From: a virus
DNA: 37,774 nt
Virus record (IMG/VR): IMGVR_UViG_3300031673_000217
Location: 1 to 37,774 of that record
Strand: one strand, 5' to 3'
Position numbers and translations under genes: made by a program
Notes under the pieces: model-generated
The model's input: the letters and a program-made list of their open reading frames with translations, nothing else
The model's database searches: none
What the model was told of the DNA's origin: nothing
Shown: positions 2,357 to 24,769 of the stretch, in pieces
How the letters are laid out: each line of letters begins with the position of its first letter
Position numbering within the stretch: position 1 is the first letter of the stretch

Positions 2357-2739
2357 GAAAAATAAAAAGTAAGATAAATGATTTGATTATATTTTTAAAA
2401 TGTTTTTTCTTTGGACATGATGATACTATTGTAACATATTACAATCCCATATCAGGAGAAAGAGATTTGGGAATATTGTGTTATAGATGTAAAAGACCTA
2501 AGATATCAGATTGGAGTTATGAATTATATCAGGAAATAGAGAACAAAGAAGATAAAGAAAAAACAAAAAGTAATAATATTGTAAAAGAGATAATTAATGA
2601 CCTTAGCGATAGAAAAGGATTGCATGATGAATGGGATTCGATAGATGAAATTATAAAAAAAGAAATAATAGATAAATGGGAAAAAATAGTAAGAATTGAA
2701 TTGATGAAAAACAAAGAAAGCGAGGTGGAGAATGAGTGA
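2353..2739 (+). CDS. Zinc-ribbon protein, DUF1660-like N-terminus
   Basis: 128 residues. The N-terminal part has a short hydrophobic/aromatic segment (LKCFFFGHDD) and later GILCYRCKRPK, a layout reminiscent of the short prophage DUF1660 proteins. The C-terminal 75 residues are charged and helical. The last residues (SEVENE) are encoded by a junction sequence repeated elsewhere in this window, and its ATG starts the next gene, with an 8-base overlap. Confidence 0.55.
   Translation: MRKIKSKINDLIIFLKCFFFGHDDTIVTYYNPISGERDLGILCYRCKRPKISDWSYELYQEIENKEDKEKTKSNNIVKEIINDLSDRKGLHDEWDSIDEIIKKEIIDKWEKIVRIELMKNKESEVENE
2716..2739 (+). repeat. Gene-junction repeat, copy 1 (SEVENE type)
   Basis: The 24-base string ends GGTGGAGAATGAGTGA. 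In one frame it encodes the tail ESEVENE-stop of the upstream protein. In another it supplies GGTGGAG as ribosome binding site and ATG-AGT as the start of the next gene. Six further copies or variants occur at 12427, 23326, 23951, 24141, 24484 and 24743. Confidence 0.9.
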
Positions 2740-2932
2740 TTATCCGATATGTTATAGATATTTATGTATTGCAACAATGGAATTTGGAATTAAATTAGGA
2801 TTAAATGATGTAATGTTATTAGTTGCATACTGGAATAGTTGGAAGGATAAGTTAAATCAGGAAACGTATCTTGAAGCTGTAAAAAAATATGATAAAGGTA
2901 CATTGGATTTTACACAAGAACCGAATTTTTAA
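2732..2932 (+). CDS. Hypothetical protein
   Basis: A 66-residue protein starting MSDYPICYRY, translated from the ATG embedded in the repeated junction. It is mostly helical, with a hydrophobic core segment (LNDVMLLVAYWNSW) and an acidic end. Overlap with the upstream gene implies translational coupling. No family recognised. Confidence 0.55.
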   Translation: MSDYPICYRYLCIATMEFGIKLGLNDVMLLVAYWNSWKDKLNQETYLEAVKKYDKGTLDFTQEPNF

Positions 2933-2942
2933 GGAGAGAGTT

Positions 2943-3242
2943 ATGAAAATGTATACTATTGAACAAGCAAGTGAAATATTGAAAGTACCACAACAAAGAA
3001 TTTATTACGAAATACATTCAGGAAGATTAAAACCATTGAATATTATGGGAAGGTATGCTTTGAGTGAGGAAAATATTGAATCATTAAAAAATAAGTATTT
3101 TAGGAAAGATAACTTGATAACGGTTGATGAGTATTGTAAAAGCAAAAAGATAAGTAGAAGTATTTTTAATTACAGAAAAGGTATCGGATATATAAAGGTG
3201 ATAAAAATTGATGGTAGAGTATATGTTAGGAGCGACAAATGA
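2943..3242 (+). CDS. Excisionase/MerR-like DNA-binding protein with two HTH units
   Basis: 99 residues. Residues 3-50 fit the winged HTH of the excisionase/HTH_17 family: YTIEQASEILKV, then PQQRIYYEIHSGRLKP, then GRYALSEENIESL. Residues 57-98 look like a second, similar unit (ITVDEYCKSKKISRSIFNY, then a RVYVRS wing). The start at 2943 follows AAGGAGAG with ideal spacing; upstream in-frame codons overlap the previous gene. It is followed by a sigma-like factor with ATGA overlap, so the two may form a regulatory pair. The DNA target is unknown. Confidence 0.75.
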   Translation: MKMYTIEQASEILKVPQQRIYYEIHSGRLKPLNIMGRYALSEENIESLKNKYFRKDNLITVDEYCKSKKISRSIFNYRKGIGYIKVIKIDGRVYVRSDK

Positions 3243-3721
3243 AGTATGAACAGGAGATAATAGAATTGATACCAATGTTAAAAAATTACTTGAAAAAGAT
3301 AATAAAGAAGTATAATGTGTTGCATGATTTTGATGAGGTGTTTCAGGAATGTTTATTGAATATAATACAGGGAAGTCAAAATAGAGAAATCCAAGAAGCA
3401 AAGAAGTATTTTATTGGTATTGCAAAAAATACTGTTAATATGATTGTTAATAGAATAAACAGGGATAGGATATTGATAGAAAAATATGGTTGTCATAAAT
3501 CAGGAATATCCAAAGACAGTTATTATAATGATATTTTAAATGACATGGAATTACAATTAAAAAAGAAATCAATCAGTTTGAATAAAGTATGGACTGCTTT
3601 AAAGGTTTTTAATGGCGATATTGGTAGGGTAGCGGAGCATTTGGAATGTAGCAAGTTTAATGTATCATATCACAAACAGGAGTTAAAAAAGATATATAAA
3701 GATACATTGATAAAAATATAA
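3239..3721 (+). CDS. RNA polymerase sigma-70-like factor
   Basis: 160 residues. Residues 28-75 resemble sigma region 2: DFDEVFQECLLNIIQ, then AKKYFIGIAKNTVNMIVNR and basic NRDR. Residues 115-155 resemble a region 4 HTH (VWTALKVFNGDIGRVAEHL, then CSKFNVSYHKQELKKIY). The size matches ECF-type or phage-encoded small sigma factors. It probably redirects host RNA polymerase to phage promoters. It overlaps the upstream HTH gene by 4 bases, and a sigma-70-type promoter lies across its stop codon. Confidence 0.65.
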   Translation: MKYEQEIIELIPMLKNYLKKIIKKYNVLHDFDEVFQECLLNIIQGSQNREIQEAKKYFIGIAKNTVNMIVNRINRDRILIEKYGCHKSGISKDSYYNDILNDMELQLKKKSISLNKVWTALKVFNGDIGRVAEHLECSKFNVSYHKQELKKIYKDTLIKI

Positions 3722-3735
3722 TTTTGTACTATAAG
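3707..3735 (+). promoter_or_regulatory. Promoter candidate for the replication operon
   Basis: TTGATA at 3707-3712, a 17-base spacer, then TATAAG at 3730-3735, a good housekeeping-type promoter. It sits across the end of the sigma-factor gene and would drive the ParB-like to Rad50 operon starting at 3786. The first gap in the gene array follows it. Confidence 0.6.
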
Positions 3736-3751
3736 ATTCGTTGTGTTTTTT

Positions 3752-3767
3752 AACATATATTATGTAA
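3752..3767. promoter_or_regulatory. Operator-like element AACATATATTATGTAA
   Basis: A near-palindrome (ACATA-TAT-TATGT) just downstream of the promoter candidate. Fourteen of 16 bases match the element at 20382-20397 in another gene-free gap. The position between the start of transcription and the first gene suits an operator; the binding protein is unknown. Confidence 0.4.
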
Positions 3768-3785
3768 ATTTGAAAGGAATTTAAG

Positions 3786-4541
3786 ATGAGTGAAAATGAC
3801 AAAGATAAAGACATTCAGGATTTGTTGGATGAGATAGAGGAAAGAGAAGGCGGTAAGGAAGTTGATGAAAAGAAAACAGATGAGGAAAAAGTTAAAAGCA
3901 AAAAACCAGAAACAAAAATTGACGCAGTTATATCAAGTCATGTGCCGATTGATCAATTAAAATTTAGTAAAGGGAACAGGGTAATAAATAAAGAATCAAT
4001 TGAGGAATTAAAAGAATCAATTCATAATTACGGATTATTAGTACCGATAATTATAAATAAGAAAAAAGAAGTTTTGGATGGAGAGAGAAGGGTAAAGGCA
4101 TTTATGGATTTATCTATAAAAGAAATCCCTTGCATTGTTAGTGATAAAAAGTTTGATGATGCATCTATTATTGCTAATTTTATAAGAGAGAATTTAAGCA
4201 CAGAACAAGTTAAGGTGATATTGATAAGAAAAATAAAAGAGAGTGAAAAGAAAATTACACAGGAAGAACTTGCCAAAATGTACGGATTAAGTCAAGGCAG
4301 AATTAGTCAGATATTTAATGTTTCAAAAAAACCAAGAGCGAAAAGTAAAAAAATTAGAAAACTCAAAAAGATAAAGAGGGTTGATTTACCAGAGAATGTT
4401 GCAATGGAAGTCCATACGAATAAAGTACAGATAACATTTATTCTTGATAATGAAATGGTAAAAAATCCAATGAAATCAATAACGAATTTATTTAAGGAAA
4501 TAAAAGATTTTGATAAAATTGTAGAAGAAGGGAGAAAATAA
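3786..4541 (+). CDS. ParB-like protein
   Basis: 251 residues. The N-terminal 45 residues are highly charged. Residues 55-120 match the ParB/Srx N-terminal domain: VPIDQLKFSKGNRVINKESIEEL, GLLVPIIIN, then LDGERRVKAF and IPCIV. After that come an IxENLxxEQV helix and an HTH (ITQEELAKMYGLSQGRISQIF), as in ParB/Spo0J. In phages such proteins occur in partition, as nucleases, or as regulators. It is the first gene after a promoter and heads the recombination operon, so it may act in replication or regulation. AAAGG lies upstream of the ATG. Confidence 0.8.
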   Translation: MSENDKDKDIQDLLDEIEEREGGKEVDEKKTDEEKVKSKKPETKIDAVISSHVPIDQLKFSKGNRVINKESIEELKESIHNYGLLVPIIINKKKEVLDGERRVKAFMDLSIKEIPCIVSDKKFDDASIIANFIRENLSTEQVKVILIRKIKESEKKITQEELAKMYGLSQGRISQIFNVSKKPRAKSKKIRKLKKIKRVDLPENVAMEVHTNKVQITFILDNEMVKNPMKSITNLFKEIKDFDKIVEEGRK

Positions 4542-4882
4542 TGGAATCACTTGATAAGGTTATTGATGCGATAAAGGATTGTGCTTTTGATTTGGACAAA
4601 GAAGAGAATTTAAAAAGAAGCAAAAATCTATTGACAATCAAGATTAAAATAAATCAAAAATTATTTGATCTTGAAAAGGAATATGAAAAGAAAAAGAACG
4701 AATTGGTAATATCAGAAGAAGTACAAAAGGGTAAAAATGCAGAAGCGAGATCAGCAATGATTGAGTTGAATTTGGCAGGAACGGATTATGATAAAATAGG
4801 AGAATATAAATTTCTTATTGGTGTTGCAAGAGGTGTTGAAAGTCACAATGAAAATGTTTTAAAAATGTTTTTTAAGGAGTAA
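4541..4882 (+). CDS. Hypothetical charged coiled-coil protein
   Basis: 113 residues, helical and rich in Lys/Glu, with a coiled-coil-like stretch at 33-55 (KINQKLFDLEKEYEKKKNEL). The start codon shares one base with the ParB-like stop. It lies between the ParB-like and ssDNA-binding genes, so a replication role is likely, but no family is recognised. Confidence 0.6.
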   Translation: MESLDKVIDAIKDCAFDLDKEENLKRSKNLLTIKIKINQKLFDLEKEYEKKKNELVISEEVQKGKNAEARSAMIELNLAGTDYDKIGEYKFLIGVARGVESHNENVLKMFFKE

Positions 4883-4886
4883 TAAA

Positions 4887-5669
4887 ATGTCAAGAGAAAC
4901 AGATTGGGGAGACCCGGACACAAGTAAAGAATTTGGAACTGATGCACAAAGATATAGAGGGAGAGAAAAGTTTAAGGATGTTATACGGATAATTACGAAG
5001 CCGATTAAATATTTTACTCATAGTGTAAAAGAGAAAAAGCTATTTGTGAATTGCAGTAAAGTGGAGGGACGTTGTTTGTTTTGTGATGAAAATTATGATA
5101 GGGCATTGAAGATCGGTTGTGTGGTTGTTCATATAGCGGAACGAGAAGTCAATAAAAATACTGGCAATTATAGTGAGGTTGGAGAAGCGAAAGTATGGTT
5201 GTTTGGAAAAGATAAATGGAAATCATTATCAGGCATCATAGAGGATTATGAACAGATAAAAAATGATTCAATACAAAAACATGATTTGATTGTTACTTGC
5301 GATGATGAAACTTTTCAGAAGATTGAATTGAGACCGACATTAGTAAAGAGTAAGGTAAGAAAAGATATGCTTGTTAGTTATCCTGCTGTAAAGAAACAGT
5401 TGGAATATTTTACAAGTCCGACAAGTCTCGAAAAACAGAAAGAGATATTGGGCGGTGCTCCTATAACAAATCATGATACGATAGAAACAGAAAATGCAAT
5501 ATCAATAGAGGAAAGCCTTGATATTCCAGATGAACTATCAGAGGGAGATAGAGCAATCCGCAAAAGTTTAAATGAACATGAAAAGGAGGACAAAAAAGAA
5601 AAAGGAGATACGGTTGAGGATATACTTGATGAGTTAGATATGGATATAGAAGGGGGAGTGCCGTTCTAA
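4887..5669 (+). CDS. Single-stranded DNA-binding protein (gp32/SSB-like)
   Basis: 260 residues. The core (20-160) has alternating strands of an OB-fold type with a CSKVEGRCLFCDE cysteine cluster, reminiscent of the zinc site in T4 gp32-like proteins. The C-terminal 60 residues are strongly acidic and end DMDIEGGVPF, which resembles the DDDIPF tip by which bacterial SSB recruits partner proteins. Placement immediately before a RecA-like recombinase (one-base overlap) supports an ssDNA-binding role. It probably coats ssDNA during replication and recombination. Assignment is by motif, tail and context. Confidence 0.7.
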   Translation: MSRETDWGDPDTSKEFGTDAQRYRGREKFKDVIRIITKPIKYFTHSVKEKKLFVNCSKVEGRCLFCDENYDRALKIGCVVVHIAEREVNKNTGNYSEVGEAKVWLFGKDKWKSLSGIIEDYEQIKNDSIQKHDLIVTCDDETFQKIELRPTLVKSKVRKDMLVSYPAVKKQLEYFTSPTSLEKQKEILGGAPITNHDTIETENAISIEESLDIPDELSEGDRAIRKSLNEHEKEDKKEKGDTVEDILDELDMDIEGGVPF

Positions 5670-6541
5670 TGAAAATACAGAAGTGGATAAAAACTGATTT
5701 CATATTGTTAAATGAAATGCTCGGCAATGGAATACCAGTAGGCAAGATTATTGAAATATTTGGATTCGAAGGTTGCGGAAAAACAACACTGGCACTGGAA
5801 TTAAGTAAGTGTTTCAGTAAAACTTATTATATTGACTATGAGCATGAATTGGATGAGAATTATGTGAAAGGAATAGGAGCAAAATTAAGTAAATTGGAAT
5901 GTCCAGAAACTTTTGAGGAGGGAATTGATAATTTTTTTCATAGTTTAAAAAAGAACGAGAAATATGATTTGTTGATTATTGATACAATAGGAAGCGCAAT
6001 CACTAATGAACAGATTGAAAAAGATTTAAAGGATAATACTATCGGTTCTCTCTCTCAAAAGGTTACGATTTTTTTAAGGAAAGCAGAGAAGATATTAAAA
6101 CCAATGGGTATAACATTGATATTATTAAATCATAAAAAAGATAAAATTGGAATTGGATTTGGTGGAGAGCGATATTATACACCCGGAGGTAGGCAGATAA
6201 AATATTCCTCAAGTATAAGATTGTCAATAACGCAAAAGAAGGATAAGATTTTTGATGATGGAATTATAAGTAATATATGGTGTGTTAGAAATAAAGTTGC
6301 ACAGGGGGATTATTTGAGGAATTGTGAATATATAATAGTTAGAGGTAAAGGAATAATTAAAGGGGAGGAAGGACTTAGATTAGGAACGGAATTAAATATA
6401 GTAAAAAGACAAGGGCAATCGTTTGTTATAGGTAAGAAATCATTTAGAGGAAAGAAGGAAGTTATTGAATTTATCAATTCAAATGATAAAATTAGGATGT
6501 TTATAAATGATAGATGGAATACAAGAATTAAAAATAAGTAA
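5669..6541 (+). CDS. RecA/UvsX-like recombinase
   Basis: 290 residues. Walker A is GFEGCGKTT (residues 32-40). The RecA-type YYIDYEHELD (53-62) carries the presumed catalytic Glu58. Walker B is LLIIDTIG (101-108). A later GGERYYTPGGRQIKYSSSIRL-type stretch matches the DNA-binding loop 2 and following strand of RecA. It catalyses ATP-dependent strand exchange. It is shorter than bacterial RecA (about 350) and lacks a long acidic C-terminus. It lies between SSB-like and Rad50-like genes and overlaps the latter by 35 bases. Confidence 0.88.
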   Translation: MKIQKWIKTDFILLNEMLGNGIPVGKIIEIFGFEGCGKTTLALELSKCFSKTYYIDYEHELDENYVKGIGAKLSKLECPETFEEGIDNFFHSLKKNEKYDLLIIDTIGSAITNEQIEKDLKDNTIGSLSQKVTIFLRKAEKILKPMGITLILLNHKKDKIGIGFGGERYYTPGGRQIKYSSSIRLSITQKKDKIFDDGIISNIWCVRNKVAQGDYLRNCEYIIVRGKGIIKGEEGLRLGTELNIVKRQGQSFVIGKKSFRGKKEVIEFINSNDKIRMFINDRWNTRIKNK

Positions 6542-7571
6542 TTATCAATCCCTAAAAGATGTTGAAATCATTTTGGGTAATATCACGGCTATTACTGGGA
6601 TGACGGATAGTGGGAAATCAGCATTTTTTAGAGCGGTAAAAGCACTTACAGAAAATCAATCAGGAAATGAATATATAACACAGGGAGAGAAAAGAACAGT
6701 AGTGCAAGCTAATGATGTAAAATGGATACAATCTACACAAGAAAACGGATATGAAATTGGAGATAAGAAATGGGAAAGATGTGGTAGGAATGTTCCTGAT
6801 GAAGTACGGGAACATTTAAATATGGGTGAATTTGTTTTTGGTAAGGATGTAAGAGCATTTTTAAATTTTTCTGGACAGTTAGATTCTGCATTTATTGTTC
6901 AAGGGAATCCTGCTGATAATGCTAAAATCATAGGTGCGATTTCAAATATTCATGTTGTATATAATGGATTGAGAGAAGCGGAAAAGGATGCGAAGAATTT
7001 AAAGAAGAGAATAACAGTAGTACAGGAAAAGATTGATGAATATAAAGAGCAGTTATTAACGGAAGAAAAAGAGTTTATTCATATTGATAAATGTTATGAA
7101 CAATTAAAAGAGATATATAGATTGGCAGTTGATATAGATGAGGAACTTGATGCGATAGGAAGTATAAAAATAAAGTATTCTGAATTGAAGATAAGCATAT
7201 CAAAATATACAGCAATAAATAAGAAATATAAAGGAATTAATTTTAAGGGATATAATAGTAAAATTGATGAAATAACTCATGCAAAAAGGGTATATAGCAG
7301 ATATGATGAGATAATAGGCAAGGTAAGGGGCATAGAGCGCCGTATAAACGTTTATAAGGGCATATCTATTAATAAAGGTATAAAGTGTATAGCAGATTAT
7401 GAAATGCTGTTAAAATTGAAATCACAGTTTTCTGAAGCAATAGTTAAGTTTAAACGTGTAGAGGATAGGTGTAATGGTTTTGGAATGGAAGTAGATGAAA
7501 TAAAAAAGAAAATTGATGAACTTGGTGTATGTGATGTTTGTGGGAGCGAAAAGCAATATTGGAATATTTGA
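6507..7571 (+). CDS. Rad50/SbcC-like ATPase, N-terminal half ending at the zinc hook
   Basis: 354 residues. The N-terminus fits SMC/Rad50 ATPases (IQELKISNYQSLKDVEI, Walker A GMTDSGKSAFF at 31-41). The rest is a long coiled coil, ending in a CDVCG zinc-hook motif (Cys342, Cys345) only nine residues before the stop. There is no ABC signature, Walker B or H-loop; these are all in the separate gene at 9711-10355. The polypeptide therefore stops at the hook apex. The two halves probably assemble with the Mre11-like nuclease encoded between them, like T4 gp46/gp47. The start overlaps RecA; TTAGGA precedes it. Confidence 0.82.
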   Translation: MIDGIQELKISNYQSLKDVEIILGNITAITGMTDSGKSAFFRAVKALTENQSGNEYITQGEKRTVVQANDVKWIQSTQENGYEIGDKKWERCGRNVPDEVREHLNMGEFVFGKDVRAFLNFSGQLDSAFIVQGNPADNAKIIGAISNIHVVYNGLREAEKDAKNLKKRITVVQEKIDEYKEQLLTEEKEFIHIDKCYEQLKEIYRLAVDIDEELDAIGSIKIKYSELKISISKYTAINKKYKGINFKGYNSKIDEITHAKRVYSRYDEIIGKVRGIERRINVYKGISINKGIKCIADYEMLLKLKSQFSEAIVKFKRVEDRCNGFGMEVDEIKKKIDELGVCDVCGSEKQYWNI

Positions 7572-7583
7572 AGGAAGAAAGAA

Positions 7584-8050: not shown

Positions 8051-8508
8051 GTAAAATAAAAGAAGAAATTAAATATGATATTGAACAGCATTTTTATTTA
8101 TTATCAAAATTAGATGAAAATAATTATAGACAAAGAATAGGGGTATTAGCAATAGGAGTGTCATTGTATAAAAGGAATACTCAATATGATGGATATATTG
8201 CTATTACAGGTTCAGTATGTAGTTTATTGGATAATTTTAATTCAAAAGCAGGAAGAAGGATTGCATTACAAAGATTAAAAAGTAGAAGTGCTAAAACAAG
8301 AAAAGTTACTTTTTTAACTATTTATAATGATAATTATTGTTTATCTGAAATAATATCATTTTTAAAATTAAAGGATGCTCTTGAAAAAAGAAATATTGAC
8401 TATGCTTTTTGTTCTAAAAGGCTTGAAAATATAATGGAATTTATAATGAAAGAAATATCAAAAGTAAAAGAAGCAGAAGATATATTGGAAGGAAAAGAAA
8501 TTGTTTAA
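8047..8508 (+). CDS. Hypothetical protein
   Basis: 153 residues, largely helical and basic, with no motif I recognise. It has a segment RRIALQRLKSRSAKTRKV that could bind nucleic acid. It overlaps the upstream gene as ATGA and runs into the TTG start of the Mre11-like gene, so it is co-expressed with the recombination nuclease complex. Confidence 0.55.
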   Translation: MSKIKEEIKYDIEQHFYLLSKLDENNYRQRIGVLAIGVSLYKRNTQYDGYIAITGSVCSLLDNFNSKAGRRIALQRLKSRSAKTRKVTFLTIYNDNYCLSEIISFLKLKDALEKRNIDYAFCSKRLENIMEFIMKEISKVKEAEDILEGKEIV

Positions 8509-9379
8509 AGCGATAGCATTTAGTTGTTTGCATTATAGTTTAAAACCACCTATAATGAGAACAGATGATTATGGTGAATTAATATTAGGTAAATTGAAAT
8601 GGATACTTGATAAGGCAAAAGAATTAGATGCAATGGTTTTATGTTGTGGTGATTTATTCCATAGAAAATATGGAGTTACATTTAAAGAAGTAAATATGTT
8701 AATGGAAACGATAGGTGATAATAAAATATATGGTATATTAGGAAACCATGATGTGCAGGGATATTATGCAATGAATACCGATGTATTACCTATTGGAGTG
8801 TTAATTAAAGCAAAAAAGTTTATACCGATGCCAGAGCATACTTATTTTATGTTTGATGGAGTAGCGATAACAGGGAAGCATTATTGTATAAATTATGATG
8901 TACCTGAAACGTATGATGTAATGGTAAAGGATTGTGATTATCATATACATTTAACGCATGGAATGTTAACGAATAAAAAGACACCTTATGATTCAGTAAG
9001 CGTTAATCAGGTAGAGGTAAATGCGGATATATTAGTTAATGGACATAATCATAGCTTTTGGCAGGATGAAGAAAGAAAAATAATAAACATAGGTTCAATA
9101 GCGAGGGTAGCAATGGATAATAATGAAATAAATAAACAACCAAAAATATTATATATTGAAGGAAAGAAAACAAGTTTTATTGATGTACCGATAGAAAAAG
9201 ATGTATGGTTAAGTGAAGTAAAAAGAGAAACATTAAATGTAGAAGATGTTGAGAAGTTTGCAAAGAGTATAAAGGAAATGGAGTTATCAAGTGATGAGGA
9301 TATATTGAAAGAAATATTAAAAGATGAAAGTAAAGAAGTGCAAAAAAAGGTATATAGTTATTTGGAGGAAAAAGAATGA
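8501..9379 (+). CDS. Mre11/SbcD-like nuclease (calcineurin-like phosphoesterase)
   Basis: 292 residues with the phosphoesterase motifs in order: SCLH (8-11), GDLFH (50-54), GNHD (81-84), a THG histidine near 152-154, and GHNH (181-184). These bind two metal ions in Mre11-type nucleases that resect DNA ends with Rad50. Motif I is normally Asp-x-His; here the Asp is replaced by Cys9. The start appears to be TTG at 8501, preceded by GGAAGG, because MFKAIAFSCLH must be included and no nearby in-frame ATG exists. The neighbours are the two Rad50 halves. Confidence 0.82.
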   Translation: MFKAIAFSCLHYSLKPPIMRTDDYGELILGKLKWILDKAKELDAMVLCCGDLFHRKYGVTFKEVNMLMETIGDNKIYGILGNHDVQGYYAMNTDVLPIGVLIKAKKFIPMPEHTYFMFDGVAITGKHYCINYDVPETYDVMVKDCDYHIHLTHGMLTNKKTPYDSVSVNQVEVNADILVNGHNHSFWQDEERKIINIGSIARVAMDNNEINKQPKILYIEGKKTSFIDVPIEKDVWLSEVKRETLNVEDVEKFAKSIKEMELSSDEDILKEILKDESKEVQKKVYSYLEEKE

Positions 9380-9714
9380 ATTTACAAGAATTAAAAGAAA
9401 AACTTGATGAAGCAAAGGATGAAAAGGCAAGGGCAGAAGAAAGATTAAAAACATTAAAGGAACAGAAAGAAGAATTGGAGGTTGAATTAAAGAAGTATGG
9501 GATTAAAGGTATAAAGGAAATTGATAAACGTACAGAAGAATTGCAAAGCGAATTGGAATTGTTGTTTGATAAGTTAAATTCCGTAGAAAAGGATGTATTA
9601 TTAACAGAAGAAGCTGAAAGTGATATTGACAAAGAGACAGCAAGTATAATTGATGAAAAAAAAGATGATGATTTGGATGATGATTTAGATAATGTATTGG
9701 ATGACATATTATGA
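9376..9714 (+). CDS. Coiled-coil protein with acidic tail, within Mre11-Rad50 operon
   Basis: 112 residues. Residues 1-75 form a charged heptad-like coiled coil (LKEKLDEAKDEKARAEERLK), and residues 85-112 are highly acidic (DDDLDDDLDNVLDDIL). It sits between the Mre11-like gene and the Rad50 C-terminal half, overlapping each by 4 bases. It may contribute a separate coiled-coil arm or adaptor to the complex (inference). It has no catalytic motif. Confidence 0.6.
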   Translation: MNLQELKEKLDEAKDEKARAEERLKTLKEQKEELEVELKKYGIKGIKEIDKRTEELQSELELLFDKLNSVEKDVLLTEEAESDIDKETASIIDEKKDDDLDDDLDNVLDDIL

Positions 9715-10355
9715 GCATATTGAATAAGATTGAAGAACAGTTAACTAATGCAGAAGAATCACGGAATGGATTAAAGGGCAGGATCGAATTATTGAAAGAG
9801 CAGACTGATAATGCAGAGGATGAATATTTGAAATGCATTGAAGAATATAAAATGATTGGGAAAGTACTTGATATATTAAGAAAGTATGCTATATTAAAAG
9901 AACAGATATTAAGAGAGAAGATTGATAATATAGTTACTAAAGGATTGAGATTGATTTTTGGTAAGGATTACAGGAGTAAGTTAGAGTTCGGAATAAGCAG
10001 AGGACAGGCAGTTATAAAACCAAGAATAATAACAATGATAAATGGAGAAGAATTAGAAACGGATATAGCAAGTGCACATGGTGGAGGATTGGTAAATATT
10101 GTTAGTGTATTATATCAGATATTGGTTTTATCATTAGTGAGACCGAAACAGAGACAAGTATTGTTTTTGGATGAACCATTCAGAAATGTTAGTGAGGAAT
10201 ATTTAGAAGCAACAGGAGAATTTTTAAAACAATTAAATGTGAAGTTAGGAATACAGATTATTTTGATTACGCATAGAAAAGAATTATTACCAGTAGCAGA
10301 TAAGGTATATGAGTTTTCATTGAGTAATGGATTAACAAAGGTAAAGCAGATATGA
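9711..10355 (+). CDS. Rad50/SbcC-like ATPase, C-terminal half
   Basis: 214 residues. Coiled coil at 1-75, then the ATPase C-lobe: ABC signature-like SAHGGGLVNI (121-130), Walker B VLFLDEPF (150-157) and H-loop THR (187-189). It lacks Walker A and a CxxC hook, both of which are in the gene at 6507-7571. Together the two make one complete Rad50 head. A strong terminator begins at its stop codon, so this is the last gene of the recombination operon. Confidence 0.85.
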   Translation: MSILNKIEEQLTNAEESRNGLKGRIELLKEQTDNAEDEYLKCIEEYKMIGKVLDILRKYAILKEQILREKIDNIVTKGLRLIFGKDYRSKLEFGISRGQAVIKPRIITMINGEELETDIASAHGGGLVNIVSVLYQILVLSLVRPKQRQVLFLDEPFRNVSEEYLEATGEFLKQLNVKLGIQIILITHRKELLPVADKVYEFSLSNGLTKVKQI

Positions 10356-10423: not shown

Positions 10424-10435
10424 AAGGAGTAATTT

Positions 10436-11431: not shown

Positions 11432-12065
11432 GATAAAATGTTATTTATGTGGCAGTTGGTGTTTTCCTCAAAATGTTACGAAATATCTTGATGCTTATTA
11501 TTGTGGTGGATGTGCGCAAGAACATATAAGAAGAATGCAAGAATGTAGCGCTCCGGATTGTATGGAACGCAGGATAGGAATGGTAAAATATTGCGAGAAG
11601 CATTTTAATCTTACAGAAAACAAAACAAAAGAAATTGAACAGCTCCGCAAAGAGAACGAGGAATTGGAAAAGAAACTTAATTTTGATAAACAAAGATGTA
11701 CTTGTGATGAAAACATAGATAGTCCATGTTTAAAGCATAAACGAGAAAATGAATTACAGGATATGGTAATAAAATTAAAGCAAGCATTGAAGAAACATAA
11801 ACATACAGATGAATGTTTTAATTATGCAGGGAAAACAGCAAGTAAAGGGAATGGTTATCATTGTATAGCTAAGTGTGCTGATTCATATAAAAAAATAATT
11901 AAAGAAGTAAATGGTGAACATATATTTACAAAATGTGAATGCGGTTCAAGGAATATTATTTGTATTGGTGGTGGGTATCAGGAGGCAGATGCAAGTCGTA
12001 ATTTACCAGAAATAGATGGTGAAGAATATGCGTGTAATGATTGTGGTAGAACGTTTTGGTGTTAA
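11424..12065 (+). CDS. Multi-zinc-finger coiled-coil protein
   Basis: 213 residues with several cysteine pairs: CYLCG (6-10), YCGGCA, C-x4-C, CTC and C-x4-C in the middle, and CECGS/CNDCGRTFWC in the last 50 residues. A short coiled coil (IEQLRKENEELEKKL) lies near 73-88. The DNA encoding LRKENEEL is identical over 24 bases to part of the gene at 23342. The start at 11424 (MSEIKCYLCG) follows GGGAAAAAAG and is preferred to one at 11286. Probably a nucleic-acid or protein-binding accessory protein. Confidence 0.55.
   Translation: MSEIKCYLCGSWCFPQNVTKYLDAYYCGGCAQEHIRRMQECSAPDCMERRIGMVKYCEKHFNLTENKTKEIEQLRKENEELEKKLNFDKQRCTCDENIDSPCLKHKRENELQDMVIKLKQALKKHKHTDECFNYAGKTASKGNGYHCIAKCADSYKKIIKEVNGEHIFTKCECGSRNIICIGGGYQEADASRNLPEIDGEEYACNDCGRTFWC
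11643..11666 (+). repeat. 24-bp exact repeat, copy A (LRKENEEL-coding)
   Basis: Identical to 23570-23593. The sequence begins CTCCGCAAAGAG and ends GAGGAATTG and codes LRKENEEL in both genes. Its codons (ctc, cgc, aac, gag) are unlike the AT-rich usage around it, which suggests recent shared origin. Confidence 0.85.
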
Positions 12066-12078
12066 GGGGATTTCAATA

Positions 12079-12450
12079 ATGAGTGAACCAAAGCAGGAGT
12101 TTAAATCAGGACATAGGGTTAGATTTATAAAACCATATAATTTTCATTGTGAATTGCAGGGCTATATAGATAATGGATTTTGGGAAGTGGCAGTAATTAG
12201 CAGTGATTTAGTTTTTTTGGCACATCAAGATCATTTAGAACATACACATAATCCACCGTTGGTTGAATGTCCTTCTTGTATGGGTATGGGAGGGTTTTTG
12301 AATGTCAATGGAACGGGGCTACCGGTACCTTCAGATTTCAAGAAGTGTGAATTTTGCAACAAGCAAGGGTGGGTAACAGAAGAAAAAAAGAATAGTTATT
12401 ATGATAAATATAGATTTAATGATAAAGAAAGCGAGGCGGTGGATGAGTGA
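12079..12450 (+). CDS. DnaJ-type zinc-finger protein
   Basis: 123 residues. Residues 1-60 form a beta-rich domain (HRVRFIKPYNF, FWEVAVISSDLVFL). Residues 62-100 contain CPSCMGMGGFL and CEFCNKQGWV, a pair of CxxCxGxG-like repeats as in DnaJ zinc fingers. The tail ESEAVDE is encoded by a junction repeat that also starts the next gene. The start has TAAGGGGA upstream. Confidence 0.6.
   Translation: MSEPKQEFKSGHRVRFIKPYNFHCELQGYIDNGFWEVAVISSDLVFLAHQDHLEHTHNPPLVECPSCMGMGGFLNVNGTGLPVPSDFKKCEFCNKQGWVTEEKKNSYYDKYRFNDKESEAVDE
12427..12450 (+). repeat. Gene-junction repeat, copy 2 (SEAVDE type)
   Basis: Variant ending GCGAGGCGGTGGATGAGTGA. It encodes ESEAVDE-stop in the upstream frame and provides GAGG and the ATG of the next gene (MSELK...). 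Confidence 0.9.
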
Positions 12451-12688
12451 GCTAAAAACAGACTATGCGCATATTAAATTCAGGGTGTGCACGATTGATC
12501 CCGGTTTTGAATGGACGTGCTTCAGCAGAAGCGGTCACGTGCTCGGCTTTGTGGCGTACAACAGGGAATGGAGGGAATACGAATACTGCCCGAATCCCGG
12601 AACGGCATACACGCATCAGTGCCATGATGATATAGCGGATTTTCTTGAACAGTTGAATATAAAAAAGAAAGGTATTAAAAATGAGTAA
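12443..12688 (+). CDS. Hypothetical protein, high-GC cassette
   Basis: 81 residues (MSELKTDYAH...) rich in aromatic residues and with scattered Cys and His (RVCTIDPGFEW, CFSRSGHVLGFVAYN, THQCHDDIADFLEQL). Codon use differs sharply from its neighbours: gtg, tgc, ggc, cac and cgg are frequent, and GC is near 50% by eye. Together with the junction repeat at its start this suggests recent acquisition. Function unknown. Confidence 0.6.
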   Translation: MSELKTDYAHIKFRVCTIDPGFEWTCFSRSGHVLGFVAYNREWREYEYCPNPGTAYTHQCHDDIADFLEQLNIKKKGIKNE

Positions 12689-15907: not shown

Positions 15908-15912
15908 AAAAC

Positions 15913-16519: not shown

Positions 16520-16521
16520 TA

Positions 16522-19519: not shown

Positions 19520-19529
19520 GGAACATAAC

Positions 19530-19961: not shown

Positions 19962-20004
19962 TAAGGTACGATTGTTTTTTAGGATTTTATACAGGAGACA
20001 GAAA

Positions 20005-20253
20005 ATGGATGAGAAGATTGAATTAGGAATACCTGCACTGGAAAGAAAAGTTATTGCTTATGAAAAGAAGATTGAGGAATTGGACAAGAACATTGAGATA
20101 CTTACTGTTAATAAAGATAAAGTTGATAGCAAATTGAATGAATTGAAAGTTACAAAAAAGGAAATGATAAAAGGATTAACAGATACAAAAGGGAAGATTG
20201 ATAAGATAAACAATCCAAAATCTATTAAAAAATCCGTTAAAAAGAAGAAGTAA
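20005..20253 (+). CDS. Coiled-coil protein
   Basis: 82 residues, nearly all a heptad-like coiled coil (LERKVIAYEKKIEELDKNIE...) with a poly-Lys tail. The start at 20005 follows AGGAGA; a longer form from 19936 would overlap the upstream gene. It is the last gene before a 347-base gap. Function unknown. Confidence 0.55.
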   Translation: MDEKIELGIPALERKVIAYEKKIEELDKNIEILTVNKDKVDSKLNELKVTKKEMIKGLTDTKGKIDKINNPKSIKKSVKKKK

Positions 20254-20284
20254 AATAATTGCATCAAAACAAGAGGGAGAAACC

Positions 20285-20316
20285 AATAAAACAATTGTAT
20301 TGTTTTTATTATTTTA
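20285..20316 (+). terminator. AT-rich terminator-like hairpin
   Basis: AATAAAACAAT (20285-20295) pairs with ATTGTTTTTATT (20299-20310, one bulged T) around a TGT loop, followed by ATTTT. It stands 31 bases after the end of the coiled-coil gene and could end the upstream transcript. The stem is weak because it is nearly all A-T. Confidence 0.45.
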
Positions 20317-20353
20317 GGGGTGTAAACATTGCATATTAAAAATAAGTTAAATT

Positions 20354-20397
20354 TTACACTATATGAAATAGAATGAATTTAAACATATATAGTGTAA
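20354..20397. promoter_or_regulatory. Inverted repeat TTACACTATAT / ATATAGTGTAA
   Basis: Two perfect 11-base arms (20354-20364 and 20387-20397) separated by 22 bases. The right arm sits in a 16-base element that matches 14 of 16 bases at 3752-3767. The left arm lies in GTTAAATTTTACAC (20346-20359), which matches 13 of 14 bases at 32678-32691. Likely an operator or phage promoter element; a hairpin role is also possible. Confidence 0.5.
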
Positions 20398-20434
20398 GTT
20401 GATTAGTTATATTAAATAATTATTTGTGTTTATT

Positions 20435-20456
20435 GAAAGGAGAAAATATGAAATAA
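20435..20456 (+). other. Strong ribosome binding site before ATG-AAA-TAA
   Basis: GAAAGGAGAAAATATG is among the best ribosome binding sites in the window, yet the frame is only Met-Lys-stop. It may be a leader (start-stop) element for the RNA structure or gene downstream, or the remnant of a deleted gene. Confidence 0.4.
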
Positions 20457-20502
20457 CAAAACGATATTTATATATAAGTGATTTTTGAAAAGAGAAATTA
20501 TG

Positions 20503-20588
20503 ATTAAGGCAGTGAGTGGCATGGTAGCCTGAAGCGACACATTGACTTGTGCGACACTTTGCAGACCGACTGTCTCACTGCCTTTAAT
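20503..20588 (+). ncRNA. GC-rich structured RNA candidate, cloverleaf-like
   Basis: In an AT-rich gap, ATTAAGGCAGTGAG (20503-20516) pairs with CTCACTGCCTTTAAT (20574-20588, one bulge). Inside are three hairpins: GGC/GCC (20518-20529), CG-A-CACA/TGTGCG (20535-20553) and GCAG/CTGT (20561-20573). This gives a four-way junction. It lacks the T-arm TTC, so it is not a normal tRNA. A 10-codon frame (MIKAVSGMVA-stop, from 20500) overlaps its 5' half, so an attenuator is another reading. It is not a plain terminator because only three T follow. Confidence 0.55.
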
Positions 20589-20600
20589 TAAGGGAAATAA

Positions 20601-20834
20601 ATGAAAAAGATAATAAGAAAGATTAAGAAGTTATTTTTATTGATGATACCTTATTTGCATTTAAATATAGATATGGGAATAATACAGATTAGAACAAGTC
20701 TAATTTATAAGGAATTTACTTTAAGATGTTTTGAATTTGTTTCATTAAAAATAACAATATTTTATAAATGGGGGTTTAGTTTTTGTTTTTATAGTCCAGA
20801 TAAATTTCGATATAATATATTAAAAGATAAATAA
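20601..20834 (+). CDS. Small basic hypothetical protein
   Basis: 77 residues, basic N-terminus (KKIIRKIKKLF) then alternating beta strands rich in Phe/Tyr. TAAGGGAAA precedes the ATG by a normal distance. It lies directly after the structured RNA candidate, which could regulate it. No family recognised. Confidence 0.5.
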   Translation: MKKIIRKIKKLFLLMIPYLHLNIDMGIIQIRTSLIYKEFTLRCFEFVSLKITIFYKWGFSFCFYSPDKFRYNILKDK

Positions 20835-20835
20835 A

Positions 20836-21015
20836 ATGTTAACTGATAATGATTTAATGCTTTTTGGTAAATATAAATATATAAAGATGAAAGATGTACC
20901 TGCTGATTATCTTGATTGGTTAAATGAGCAGGAATGGATTGAGAGGGATTTCAAGGAAGTATTTAATTATATACAAGATAATATTGATGCTATAAATAAG
21001 GAATTGGAAGAATGA
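20836..21015 (+). CDS. DUF3820 family protein
   Basis: 59 residues: LTDNDLMLFGKYKYIKMKDVPADYLDWL matches the DUF3820 core (FGKYKG ... DVPADYLxWL). The remainder is an acidic helix. Members are common in phages and bacteria, and their function is not established. ATGA overlap with the following gene at 21012. Confidence 0.7.
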   Translation: MLTDNDLMLFGKYKYIKMKDVPADYLDWLNEQEWIERDFKEVFNYIQDNIDAINKELEE

Positions 21016-21209
21016 TACATTATAAAGAAACGAAATATGGATTTGAATGGGGAAGTGCTAAAATAGAAAGATGTTGTAGCGATGAGAAAAAAGGATGGAT
21101 TGTATTATTTATAAAAACTCCAAGACACAAGAATGGTTTGGAGATATATATAACAAAAACAGGCAAAGTAAGAGTGTATGGCAAAAAGGAATGGGAAGAA
21201 AAAAAATGA
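21012..21209 (+). CDS. Hypothetical protein
   Basis: 65 residues: beta-rich (YGFEWGSAKIERC, GWIVLFIKTPR, LEIYITKTGKVRVYG) with a KKEWEEKK tail. Its stop overlaps the ATG of the DUF5131 gene. No family recognised. Confidence 0.55.
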   Translation: MIHYKETKYGFEWGSAKIERCCSDEKKGWIVLFIKTPRHKNGLEIYITKTGKVRVYGKKEWEEKK

Positions 21210-22000
21210 CTAAAATAGAATGGTGTGATGAATCATGGAATCCGATTACAGGATGTACTCCGATTAGCGAAGGATGCAAGAATTGTTACGCAAAAAGAAT
21301 GTCATACAGAATGAAAGGTAGATTTGGATATGATAAAAATGAACCTTTCAAGGTAACGTATCATAAAGATAAATTAAAAGAACCTTTGAAATGGAAAAAA
21401 CCGAAAAAGATATTTGTATGCAGTATGGGAGATTTATTTCATGAAGCTATTTGTGATGAAACGATTGATGATGTTTTAAGTATTGCGTTATTAGCAAAAC
21501 AGCATACATATTTATTATTGACAAAGAGACCTAAAAGAGCACTGGCATATTTTAATTATCATTTTCCTATTGGGGTTGATGGTAACAAAGAATTTTATAG
21601 GAAAGATTATTTAACAGATAATGTATGGGTTGGAATTACAGCAGAGAATCAAGAAAGGGCAGATGAAAGGATACCTGTACTATTTAAAATTCCTGCAAGA
21701 ATACGATTTGTTAGTGCAGAACCGATGTTAAGAATGATGTTATTAGAAAAATATTTGGGTTATTATAATAAGTATGCAATATTGACAGAAGAAAAACCTA
21801 AATTAGATTGGGTTATATGTGGTGGAGAGAATGGACATGGAGCGAGGGCTATTCCTTCGTACAGTATAATGAATTTACGGGATCAATGTGTAAAAGCAAA
21901 TGTACCATTTTTCTTTAAGGGATGGGGAAAAGCATCACCAAATACAGGCAGGAAAATACAAGGTAAGGAATGGAACCAGTTTCCTAAAATTAAAGGCTAA
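21206..22000 (+). CDS. DUF5131 / phage Gp37-Gp68 family protein
   Basis: 264 residues. It starts MTKIEWCDESWNPITGCTPISEGCKNCYAKRM, the hallmark three-cysteine N-terminus of this family. Later parts IFVCSMGDLFHEAI, TYLLLTKRPKRA, VWVGITAENQERADERIP, RFVSAEPML and DWVICGGENGHGAR are all typical. The Cys cluster suggests an iron-sulfur or metal site related to radical-SAM-like folds, but the reaction is not established. Start at 21206 chosen because the hallmark motif begins there. The neighbours are DUF3820 and ASCH-like genes. Confidence 0.85.
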   Translation: MTKIEWCDESWNPITGCTPISEGCKNCYAKRMSYRMKGRFGYDKNEPFKVTYHKDKLKEPLKWKKPKKIFVCSMGDLFHEAICDETIDDVLSIALLAKQHTYLLLTKRPKRALAYFNYHFPIGVDGNKEFYRKDYLTDNVWVGITAENQERADERIPVLFKIPARIRFVSAEPMLRMMLLEKYLGYYNKYAILTEEKPKLDWVICGGENGHGARAIPSYSIMNLRDQCVKANVPFFFKGWGKASPNTGRKIQGKEWNQFPKIKG

Positions 22001-22002
22001 AC

Positions 22003-22377
22003 ATGAGAAATATGAGTGTTGCATATACAACAGAGCAAATAGAAAATGAATCAAAAACAATTACAAGAAGAAATGGATGGTGGTTCTTAAAGCCGGGCGA
22101 TATTGTAATGACATGCAAAAAATGTATGGGATTTAAAAAGGGAGAAAAGATACAGAAGATAAAACCGATAAGGATAATATCCACAAGGAAAGAGCGATTA
22201 TCTGATATAACACAGGATGATGTAGTTAAGGAGGGATTTCCCGATATGTCAGTGGATGAATTTATTGATATGTATAAAAAAATAGGTCATTATAAATATG
22301 TTAATCCTGATTCAATCCCAGTAAACAGGATTGAATTCTGTTATGTAAAGGAGCAAGGGGATGAAAGAGTTTATTAG
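22003..22377 (+). CDS. ASCH domain protein
   Basis: 124 residues: SVAYTTEQIENESKTITRRNGWWFLKPGDIV is the ASCH core (K-T-x-T-R-R, then GW ... LKPGD). It is followed by IKPIRIISTRKERLSDITQDDVVKEGFP and VNRIEFCYV. ASCH domains bind RNA or modified bases; the substrate here is unknown. It follows the DUF5131 gene by two bases and overlaps the Toprim gene by 17. An alternative start is at 22012. Confidence 0.78.
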   Translation: MRNMSVAYTTEQIENESKTITRRNGWWFLKPGDIVMTCKKCMGFKKGEKIQKIKPIRIISTRKERLSDITQDDVVKEGFPDMSVDEFIDMYKKIGHYKYVNPDSIPVNRIEFCYVKEQGDERVY

Positions 22378-23326
22378 AGATTGGAATTATAGAGAAAAAT
22401 TGGCAATAACATATATAGACAACACTGGAAATGAAAGTATTTTTGAAGCAAATCAGCATGAATTGATTAATCAAATAATTAACATTGTCAATGATTATTG
22501 CAATCAAAATATAACATTAACAAATAGACAAATTTATTATCAATTAGTAGCGAAGGATATTATTCCTAATGCAGATGAAATATATAAACGGATATGTAAA
22601 ATTATAACGGATTCAAAATATGCAGGTTTAATTGATTGGGATGCGATAGAGGATAGGGGTAGAACACCGTTAAAACATCCTGAATGGGAAAACGTTAAGG
22701 AACTTATTGAAAGCGCTATTTATGCTTACAGATTACCACGGTGGAAAGATCAAAAATATTATGTAGAATTATATTGTGAAAAACAAGCCATGGAGAGTAT
22801 TATTAAACCTATTGCAGACAAGTATCATATTTATTTTGGTGTAAATAAAGGATATTCAAGTTCTTCAACAATATATGATTTATCAAAACGAATAAAAAAC
22901 AAAATAATAGAAGGTAAAAAAACTATTATTCTTTATTTAGGAGACCATGATCCGTCAGGATTGGATATGATTAGGGATATAAATGATAGGATAAGAGAAT
23001 TTATAACAGTTGATATGGAATTATATGCAGATGAATTTAATGTTGAACAACTTGCTTTAAATATGGAACAAATAAATGAATATAATCCACCGCCAAACCC
23101 TGCAAAAATAAAAGACCCAAGAGCGAAATGGTATATAAAAAAATATGGGAATAAAAGTTGGGAATTGGATGCATTAGAGCCGAGAGTGTTAATTGATATT
23201 GCAGAAAGAGGGATATTAAAATATTTAAATAAAAGAAAATATAATGAATGGATTAGAAGAGAAGAAAAAGAGAAAAAGGAACTTATTAAATTTGGTAATA
23301 AATTAATAGCAAACAAGAAAAGATAG
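22361..23326 (+). CDS. TopoVI-A/Spo11-like Toprim protein
   Basis: 321 residues. Residues 50-66 (NITLTNRQIYYQLVAKD) resemble the catalytic Tyr winged-helix motif of topoisomerase VI A/Spo11 (R-x-x-YY). Residues 134-200 hold a Toprim-like set: VELYCEKQAME (Glu140), GVNKGYSSSSTIYD and IILYLGDHDPSGLDM (Asp195, Asp197). A full TopoVI needs a B subunit, and none is seen. It may be a nuclease or DNA-breaking enzyme of the kind found on mobile elements. The C-terminus is basic. GGAGCAAGGGG precedes the ATG. Confidence 0.65.
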   Translation: MKEFIRDWNYREKLAITYIDNTGNESIFEANQHELINQIINIVNDYCNQNITLTNRQIYYQLVAKDIIPNADEIYKRICKIITDSKYAGLIDWDAIEDRGRTPLKHPEWENVKELIESAIYAYRLPRWKDQKYYVELYCEKQAMESIIKPIADKYHIYFGVNKGYSSSSTIYDLSKRIKNKIIEGKKTIILYLGDHDPSGLDMIRDINDRIREFITVDMELYADEFNVEQLALNMEQINEYNPPPNPAKIKDPRAKWYIKKYGNKSWELDALEPRVLIDIAERGILKYLNKRKYNEWIRREEKEKKELIKFGNKLIANKKR

Positions 23327-23347
23327 AAAGCGAGGTGGAGAATGAGC
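23326..23347 (+). repeat. Gene-junction repeat, copy 3
   Basis: The junction string here begins at the last base of the Toprim gene stop and is not translated as a tail. It ends GGTGGAGAATGAGC and starts the next gene (MSKTKRY). Confidence 0.85.
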
Positions 23348-23974
23348 AAAACAAAAAGATACCATGATGCTGATGGGAACAAGGTAACGCTAACTACGTT
23401 ATGCAAAAAAGTACCTGACTGGGTAGCTAACCAAATAAGACAGATAAACAAAGAGAATGATGAATTGAAGACGCAAATTGACATAGGAGTAAGACTCCAT
23501 CAATCATTGGCTGAAAAGCTATATGCGGTTGGTGGAAATCTTGAAAATCATAAAATAATGACAAAGGAACTCCGCAAAGAGAACGAGGAATTGAGAAACG
23601 GCAATAAACATATCGCGGCATGGATGGATAGGTGTCACGATTTGGAAATAGAGAACAATGAATTGCTCGATGAAATTGAGGCGTTAACAGAATGTTTGAA
23701 CGGGTCCAGCAAGGCAGTTTATACCGCTGAAGTATTTGATAAAATGATGGCAAAGAAGGATGAGGAGATTGAATGTTTAAAGCATGAGAATGAGCAATTA
23801 AGAGCACGGATTAAAGAAAGAGCAGACCTGACACATAAATATTATCTTGAACAGATAGAGGAATTAAAGTATATCCTGAACGACATTCAGATCGTTGACG
23901 GAAGATTGCTTGTTACGGAGGAAATGAGGAAATATGTAAAACCGATAAAGGAAATCGAGGTGGAGAATGAGTGA
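23342..23974 (+). CDS. Long coiled-coil protein
   Basis: 210 residues, largely coiled coil from about 30 (INKENDELKTQID, ELRKENEELRNGN, LEIENNELLDEIEALTE, CLKHENEQLRARI). It contains the 24-base identical stretch shared with the gene at 11424, and a similar MFKA/CLKH segment. Base composition is richer in GC than its neighbours. The end EIEVENE is encoded by a junction repeat. It may be a structural or scaffold protein; unknown. Confidence 0.6.
   Translation: MSKTKRYHDADGNKVTLTTLCKKVPDWVANQIRQINKENDELKTQIDIGVRLHQSLAEKLYAVGGNLENHKIMTKELRKENEELRNGNKHIAAWMDRCHDLEIENNELLDEIEALTECLNGSSKAVYTAEVFDKMMAKKDEEIECLKHENEQLRARIKERADLTHKYYLEQIEELKYILNDIQIVDGRLLVTEEMRKYVKPIKEIEVENE
23570..23593 (+). repeat. 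24-bp exact repeat, copy B (LRKENEEL-coding)
   Basis: Identical to 11643-11666 and in the same reading frame relative to the protein. Confidence 0.85.
23951..23974 (+). repeat. Gene-junction repeat, copy 4
   Basis: Starts GAAATCGAGG (one difference from copy 1) and ends GGTGGAGAATGAGTGA. Tail EIEVENE, then MSDIKL. Confidence 0.9.
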
Positions 23975-24164
23975 TATAAAATTAATGCCGCATAAATGTC
24001 CGGTATGCAATGGCAGAGGTATTGTCCCGAATGGTTTCTATTCTACGACCAGTCCGTATTACAGTAGTACAAGCACTATTCCTGACAAATGCAGGTCATG
24101 CAATGGGACGGGTGTAGTATGGCATGCATATCATAATTTGGAAAGCGAGGTGGAGAATGAGTGA
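23967..24164 (+). CDS. DnaJ-type zinc-finger protein
   Basis: 65 residues: CPVCNGRGIV (11-20) and CRSCNGTGVVW (about 42-52), two CxxCxGxG motifs as in DnaJ, separated by a Ser/Tyr/Thr-rich spacer. No J domain. Tail ESEVENE from a junction repeat. It probably binds zinc and contacts a partner protein or RNA. Confidence 0.65.
   Translation: MSDIKLMPHKCPVCNGRGIVPNGFYSTTSPYYSSTSTIPDKCRSCNGTGVVWHAYHNLESEVENE
24141..24164 (+). repeat. Gene-junction repeat, copy 5
   Basis: Identical to copy 1. Tail ESEVENE, then MSEKPV. Confidence 0.9.
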
Positions 24165-24507
24165 AAAACCTGTTATCGTTACTTTGTGTGGAAGCACAAA
24201 ATTTAAAGATGAATTTGTAAGTGCCAATTTAAGAGAAACGTTAAAGGGAAAGATTGTGTTGTCTATTGGTTGTGATACGAAAACAGATGATGATATTTTT
24301 GGTCATTTAAGCGAAGAAGAATTTAAGAAAACAAAAGAAAAACTTGACTGGCTTCATAAAAGAAAAATTGATATATCTGATGAAATACTTGTGTTAGACG
24401 TTAATGGATATATTGGTGAGTCAACAAAAGGTGAGATAGATCATGCTAAAAGTTGCAATAAGAGAATCAGATATCTGTCAGAAGAAAGCGAGGCGGTCGA
24501 TGAGTGA
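24157..24507 (+). CDS. Nucleoside 2-deoxyribosyltransferase-like protein
   Basis: 116 residues: VIVTLCGSTKFKDEFVSANL at the N-terminus, EILVLDVNGYIGESTKGEIDHA near 85-105, a Rossmann-like arrangement of the nucleoside 2-deoxyribosyltransferase superfamily (related to DUF4406). The Gly-Glu-Ser-x-x-Gly-E-x-x-x-A motif fits nucleotide binding. It may move deoxyribose between bases or act on a nucleotide. It is adjacent to a MazG-like gene, so nucleotide metabolism is a common theme. Tail ESEAVDE from a junction repeat. Confidence 0.68.
   Translation: MSEKPVIVTLCGSTKFKDEFVSANLRETLKGKIVLSIGCDTKTDDDIFGHLSEEEFKKTKEKLDWLHKRKIDISDEILVLDVNGYIGESTKGEIDHAKSCNKRIRYLSEESEAVDE
24484..24507 (+). repeat. Gene-junction repeat, copy 6
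   Basis: Variant ending GCGAGGCGGTCGATGAGTGA. Tail ESEAVDE, then MSELSK. Confidence 0.9.
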
Positions 24508-24769
24508 ATTAAGTAAAGAAATAAAACTATTTGCAGAACGTATGCAATTTAAACTTGAAAAGAATAGACATAAAGGTGGTTGGGACAGATGCCCGATTGC
24601 ATCGCTTATGAACAGAGCGGATGAAGAAAAAGAAGAGTTTATCGAGTCTTGTAAAGACCTTGATTATGAACAAGCAATGAATGAATGTGCTGATGTGGCT
24701 AATTTTTGGATGATGATACATGATAAATTGATGAAGAGGAGAGAAAGCGAGGCTGTGGATGGCAAATAG
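24500..24769 (+). CDS. MazG-like nucleotide pyrophosphohydrolase
   Basis: 89 residues, all-alpha: WDRCPIASLMNRADEEKEEFIESC gives an E-x-x-x-E metal site, and QAMNECADVANFWMMIH gives the E-x-x-D pair typical of MazG. MazG-type enzymes hydrolyse nucleoside triphosphates, and phage versions may alter nucleotide or alarmone pools. The ATG at 24500 lies within the junction repeat. Confidence 0.65.
   Translation: MSELSKEIKLFAERMQFKLEKNRHKGGWDRCPIASLMNRADEEKEEFIESCKDLDYEQAMNECADVANFWMMIHDKLMKRRESEAVDGK
24743..24769 (+). repeat. Gene-junction repeat, copy 7
   Basis: GAAAGCGAGGCTGTGGATGG, a shorter variant. Tail ESEAVDGK, then MANRIK. Confidence 0.85.

Follow-up and report, generated by a model that had tools for sequence, protein, structure and literature searches.

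Start-Associated Sequences (SAS/ESAS), described in Cluster K mycobacteriophages (PMC3203893) and in Microbacterium phages of Cluster EF (PMC7302621), are short, conserved sequences that recur in multiple copies and one orientation at the ribosome sites of unrelated genes. The genes concerned are non-structural, and in some SAS the stop codon of the upstream gene lies inside the repeat (PMC3203893, PMC7302621). A second body of work addresses the old open question of why the boundaries of phage mosaics fall on gene boundaries, for which both targeted recombination and random recombination followed by selection have been advanced; boundary sequences or linkers, that is, short homologies repeated at gene boundaries that could target recombination, were proposed to account for this mosaicism (PMC3233612, PMC3029335). 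Individual cases are provided by Island3 genes 67/68 and Corndog gene 14, where the direct repeats on either side of a gene take in the end of the gene upstream (PMC3029335, PMC4351075), Island3 gp67 and gp68 having 18 C-terminal residues in common (PMC3029335). The PeSLs of T4-type phages (Arbiol 2010, Comeau 2014, as described in PMC4503421), which combine a promoter with a stem-loop, are repeated regulatory elements thought to mediate gene shuffling.

The DNA analysed here is a viral stretch of 37,774 nucleotides (IMG/VR record IMGVR_UViG_3300031673_000217; hereafter the window), for which a sequence-only reading had reported seven copies of a 24-base string at gene junctions. The string, GAAAGCGAGG(T/C)GGnGnATGAGTGA, was found exactly at all seven coordinates, forming the following joints.

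J1, 2716..2739, + strand: N type, GAAAGCGAGGTGGAGAATGAGTGA; encodes the tail ESEVENE-stop of gene 2353-2739 and starts gene 2732-2932; 8-nt overlap.
J2, 12427..12450, + strand: D type, GAAAGCGAGGCGGTGGATGAGTGA; encodes the tail ESEAVDE-stop of gene 12079-12450 and starts gene 12443-12688; 8-nt overlap.
J3, 23326..23349, + strand: N type; non-coding for the upstream gene 22361-23326; ribosome site and start of gene 23342-23974.
J4, 23951..23974, + strand: N type with GAAATC; encodes the tail EIEVENE-stop of gene 23342-23974 and starts gene 23967-24164; 8-nt overlap.
J5, 24141..24164, + strand: N type, same as J1; encodes the tail ESEVENE-stop of gene 23967-24164 and starts gene 24157-24507; 8-nt overlap.
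J6, 24484..24507, + strand: D type, GTC for GTG; encodes the tail ESEAVDE-stop of gene 24157-24507 and starts gene 24500-24769; 8-nt overlap.
J7, 24743..24766, + strand: D type, the most diverged, continuing as ATGGCAAA; encodes the tail ESEAVDGK-stop of gene 24500-24769 and starts gene 24759-24968; 11-nt overlap.

The joint string is a discrete DNA repeat with sharp edges. Allowing up to three mismatches, the 24-base pattern occurs six times in the window where none is expected (100 shuffles), and an 18-base form occurs seven times on the + strand, with no occurrence in the window on the - strand or when the pattern is read backwards. Between the copies at 2716 and 24141 all 24 bases agree, the remainder differing by 1-5 bases, and two forms can be distinguished, the N type containing GGTGGAGAATG and the D type containing GGCGGTGGATG. 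Six copies carry the prefix GAAAGC, replaced by GAAATC in the seventh (J4). Identity among the seven copies is 84% over the first 16 bases of the string and 80% over its last 8, and falls to 32% in the flanks (30 bases before, 33 after), the level of unrelated gene starts in the same window. When scored against the 24-base consensus, the seven junction starts reach 19-24 and the 52 other starts of the window 16 at most, none of the 59 lying between 16 and 19.

In position and conservation SAS are the closest known system, the present repeat likewise occurring at gene starts in every copy and on one strand. A SAS is 13 bp long and lies 3-7 bp before the start codon, which it excludes, whereas the string described here spans 24 bp with the ATG among them, and six of the seven copies also encode the tail of the upstream gene; half of the SAS copies are extended by 17-bp inverted repeats (ESAS), whereas the 30 bases upstream of the present copies agree at background level only. 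The SAS consensus, 5'-GGGATAGGAGCCC, has no match in the window with up to two mismatches. In proposed evolutionary role, boundary sequences and the Island3/Corndog insertions stand closest. Unlike what is proposed for boundary sequences, the sequence here has an obvious translation role as well, and gene turnover was seen only at the joints of other phages; the Island3 and Corndog cases are single events with two copies each, whereas here there are seven copies, five of them in a run. With PeSLs the analogy is one of purpose and not of anatomy, since the present unit, which appears to act on translation, shows neither a terminator-like site nor an unusual fold, and promoter-like sites are in no clear excess. 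A limited search of the open-access literature returned no description of repeats that carry a start, a ribosome site and an upstream tail together.

In all seven copies an ATG lies 16 bases into the string, with GAGG(T/C) ahead of it at Shine-Dalgarno (SD) distance, and opens the next gene. The stop codon of the upstream gene is the TGA within ATGAGTGA, so placed that stop and start overlap beside the SD site, by 8 nt in five copies and by 11 nt in one (24743), which is the arrangement associated with termination-reinitiation coupling. The dual use originally ascribed to all seven copies stands for the supply of an SD site and an ATG to the next gene, and for the upstream tail in six copies, the exception being that at 23326: the topoisomerase-like gene 22361-23326 ends in TAG, the G of which is the first base of the string, and no tail is encoded. 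The SEVENE and SEAVDE tails described earlier are seen at most joints, with ESEAVDGK and the longer overlap at 24743. The suggestion made in the sequence-only reading, of a recombination joint that lets cassettes be added without breaking translation, is supported in part, in that the string should yield a translated start wherever it is placed, regardless of the upstream reading frame.

The genes that the joints bring together are listed below.

2353..2932, + strand: genes joined by J1 (2353-2739, 2732-2932); no Pfam family match.
12079..12688, + strand: genes joined by J2 (12079-12450, 12443-12688); GC3 of 12443-12688 is 0.51, against a genome mean near 0.24.
23342..24769, + strand: four single-gene units between five joints (the array).
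23342-23974, + strand: coiled coil, array unit.
23967-24164, + strand: small cysteine-rich protein, array unit.
24157-24507, + strand: LCGSTKFKD-motif protein, array unit.
24500-24769, + strand: weakly PRA-PH/MazG-like protein, array unit; the PRA-PH match is below the curated cut-off.

These genes had been called unrelated, and the four array genes indeed have no family in common. The five array joints lie in tandem within 1.45 kb, while J1 and J2 are solitary, 10-20 kb away, and do not form arrays. The composition of the joined genes is uneven (GC3 0.19-0.51; the other genes average 0.24). Most homologues of the LCGSTKFKD protein terminate near RYL(E), by which standard the ESEAVDE tail of 24157-24507 is extra, these seven residues being modest evidence given that homologue tails in the alignment are variable anyway; the sole relative found for 24500-24769 aligns up to residue 80 of 89, short of the tail.

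By calculation, the predicted ribosome sites of the joint genes are, as a group, much stronger than those of the other genes in the window, the SD duplex energy with the anti-SD averaging -11.0 kcal/mol for the seven against -5.6 for the others (Mann-Whitney p = 7.5e-5). Local folding at the joints is unremarkable and no unusual fold was predicted there, no terminator-like site is present, and promoter-like sites in the array region (22, against 16.3 in shuffled sequence, sd 3.8) show no clear excess. A strong ribosome site and a stop-start overlap, with no clear promoter, terminator or fold signal, support a role that is probably exerted in translation. A promoter or stem-loop element was rejected as an account of the repeat, on the basis of the same three negative signals.

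Relatives in which gene content between the joints could be compared were sought by several routes. The portal protein retrieved only two identical partial contigs, which cover 27.7-37.8 kb and contain no joint; the topoisomerase retrieved 80 loci without synteny, the best at 53-56% identity and with almost no other gene common to the window. No relative was found with the SbcD-like protein or an 81-aa protein, nor among annotated phages by a protein search with two joint proteins or by a DNA search.

The same architecture was recognized with other strings in other phages. The loci fetched were scanned for starts that recur and have the upstream stop at the joint, a family being defined by at least three copies. 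Of 214 viral loci (2.9 Mb, window included), 10 contained dual-use joint families, a set that is partly biased, L318, L286, L227, L266 and L020 having been fetched by patterns requiring the core of the window's string and L399 by the string of L195; L195, L334 and L362 came to light in protein searches. No family appeared in five controls with the compared stretch moved by 40-100 bases. In L195, seven copies give upstream proteins ending in GDPS, GEPS or GDQS; in L318, four copies give GKVEVKDE or GKVEVGDE; the eight copies of L362 are ordinary non-coding starts, nearer to SAS. No dual-use family was found in the parts scanned of Gordonia phages GAL1 and CheeseTouch, Microbacterium phage Hendrix and T4, and only weak three-copy sets were present in those of Gordonia phage ODay and mycobacteriophage Island3.

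Two pairs of these loci are informative with regard to gene turnover. L195 and L399 are collinear on either side of a block of small genes, at 85% identity on the left and 90-93% on the right, and within the block share one stretch only (89%), the small genes being mostly different. Joint strings with the tails EGQGA, GDPS and NRTQEEK recur in both, where they sit on different genes. The NRTQEEK string additionally occurs intergenically before L195 4911, and a different reading frame is used for it at L195 5559-5586 and L399 3698-3725. Between the conserved flanks of L227 and L220, the KGETE(L/R) joints bound different genes in the two, and a further difference, the presence or absence of a single gene (L220 6386-6595), falls precisely at an ATGAGCGAG start, the shared joint there amounting to only about 10 bases. 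Such joints can coincide with gene turnover, an observation that is no proof for the window, these being phages unrelated to that of the window, with joints that differ from its own in sequence.

Overall, we consider it probable, if by no means secure, that the string is a translation-initiation element that has been copied and also serves as a recombination joint. That it is repeated as DNA, regardless of reading frame, ahead of seven unrelated genes is directly observed. Each copy combines the GAAAGC prefix with a strong SD (GAGGTG or GAGG) and, after a short spacer, an ATG, which in most copies is overlapped over 8 nt by a TGA stop; the element would have been copied with, or onto, incoming genes as a ready-made 5' end. 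The upstream gene would then read into the element and stop at the built-in TGA, acquiring its ESEVENE or ESEAVDE tail, and the overlap of TGA and start should couple both genes by termination-reinitiation. As a short homology, the element could further serve recombination, such that single genes are added, lost or exchanged with translation kept. The translation element is the best-shown part of this proposal; the recombination joint is plausible, and is supported by analogy with the gene turnover at the joints of L195/L399 and L227/L220. A broader proposition, which we offer tentatively, is that separate phage lineages may each have evolved a private multi-copy joint, with ribosome site, start and overlapping stop accepting any upstream frame, for plugging in, losing and reshuffling small translated genes, the window being one instance and L195/L399 the reshuffling.

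An expression element in the manner of SAS, held identical by selection on translation or on a phage or host binding factor and involving no gene exchange, seems to us unlikely, though it is the alternative that deserves most attention. It is favored by the location of the string over the ribosome site, its unusual conservation and its association with the strongest SD group in the window, and is how the authors who described SAS explain them (PMC3203893); it leaves unexplained the uneven composition of the joined genes and the occurrence of the same architecture elsewhere on gene sets with turnover. The two explanations are not mutually exclusive.

A different concern, raised in the sequence-only reading itself, is that the match might be only to a common ribosome-binding-site pattern. 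This applies to part of the string: at least 118 viral contigs contain the 18-base core, GAGGYGGWNRATGAGTGA, comprising the SD and ATGAGTGA, mostly where ordinary genes meet and with EVENE-like tails. The concern does not extend to the GAAAGC prefix, which is found in none of the 118 contigs listed with the core and which marks the string as a true repeat. A 19-base pattern including most of the prefix matched 20 contigs once each, about the chance expectation, and no second genome with several copies was found with it in the viral contig collection; as far as that collection shows, the full repeat appears private to this phage. Contig L002, an unrelated phage, matches exactly over 20 bases, once only, at a gene junction whose tail is ESEVENE-stop; this is not counted as evidence because one such match is near chance for a collection of that size, and a scan of bacterial genomes gave, among the matches listed, single, chance-like ones. 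The EVENE-like tails that the 18-base core yields in other phages are convergent. Extending convergence to the window, such that an acidic EVENE-like tail would result for any gene pair with a strong SD and an ATGAGTGA overlap and each of the seven copies would have a separate origin, draws on the same abundance of the core at ordinary junctions; it is very improbable in view of a prefix outside the SD that six of the seven copies carry and of the empty interval in consensus scores.

Selection for an acidic C-terminal peptide, for example as a shared tag or degradation signal, might be suggested by the six proteins that end in ESEVENE, EIEVENE, ESEAVDE or ESEAVDGK, and is hardly credible. J3 retains the DNA without translating it, which indicates that the conserved unit is DNA and the tail a by-product and not a cause; the majority of base differences between copies alter the amino acid, which points to DNA or RNA rather than peptide; and unrelated phages obtain similar tails simply by reading the SD and ATGAGTGA in that frame. 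Equally remote is tandem gene duplication followed by divergence, with the joints as relics, which the tight array of five might suggest and which was rejected because the gene products are unrelated, the four array genes having no common family, similarity ending at the edges of the string and two copies lying 10-20 kb distant.

Read as a copied initiation element with a probable second role as a recombination joint, the repeat bears on the placement of mosaic boundaries in phages, since a repeat combining stop, ribosome site and start would directly explain their precision. Such a repeat also predicts recurring C-terminal tails, for which any phage collection can be scanned, and calls for caution in annotation, as common C-termini need not imply common function.

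The stretch CTCCGCAAAGAGAACGAGGAATTG, common to two coiled-coil genes, occurs in the window at 11632-11678, 23433-23479 and 23559-23605. One of these genes lies inside the J3-J7 array (four unrelated genes between five joints, 23342-24769), and the other adjoins J2, the joint at 12427, each joint being a copy of the repeated 24-base string that carries the ribosome site and ATG of the next gene. This common stretch may be a second sign that the J2 and J3-J7 joint regions have exchanged sequence.

Elsewhere in the window, the gene at 818-2059, the GC content of which is clearly above that of its surroundings, contains approximately 36 tandem units of 15 nt encoding pentapeptide repeats of the NSGDR/NSGYS type. 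Judged by eye from their translations, 6507-7571 and 9711-10355 resemble the two ends of an SbcC/Rad50-type ATPase; they are separated by other genes, including one for an SbcD-like nuclease (8501-9379). Between the genes at 27824-28063 and 28166-28681, the 8-mer AATAGAGG is repeated six times in tandem (28043-28112). The right part of the window (27744-37774) shows 100% identity with viral contigs L150 and L151, over 7.75 and 10.0 kb; because both derive from samples other than the window's, this phage population has been sampled more than once.

Among the other viral contigs compared, L362 (98-15310) has AAAGGAGGGGGAGATGA eight times, each time at a gene start and in no case encoding an upstream tail, a repeat that resembles the Start-Associated Sequences (SAS) conserved at phage gene starts and that belongs to a phage other than the window's. 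The nearest mimic of the window's joint is found in an unrelated phage, L318, where four AAGGTCGAGGTGAAAGATGAGTGA joints (133-1863, minus strand) encode tails of GKVEVKDE*. Finally, the collinear phage contigs L195 (3535-8855) and L399 (1-6006) contain dual-use joints of no fewer than three additional families, which also encode the C-terminal tail of the upstream protein (EGQGA, GDPS and NRTQEEK), and the small genes between joints are almost wholly turned over from one contig to the other. For a test, this pair is better suited than the window itself.
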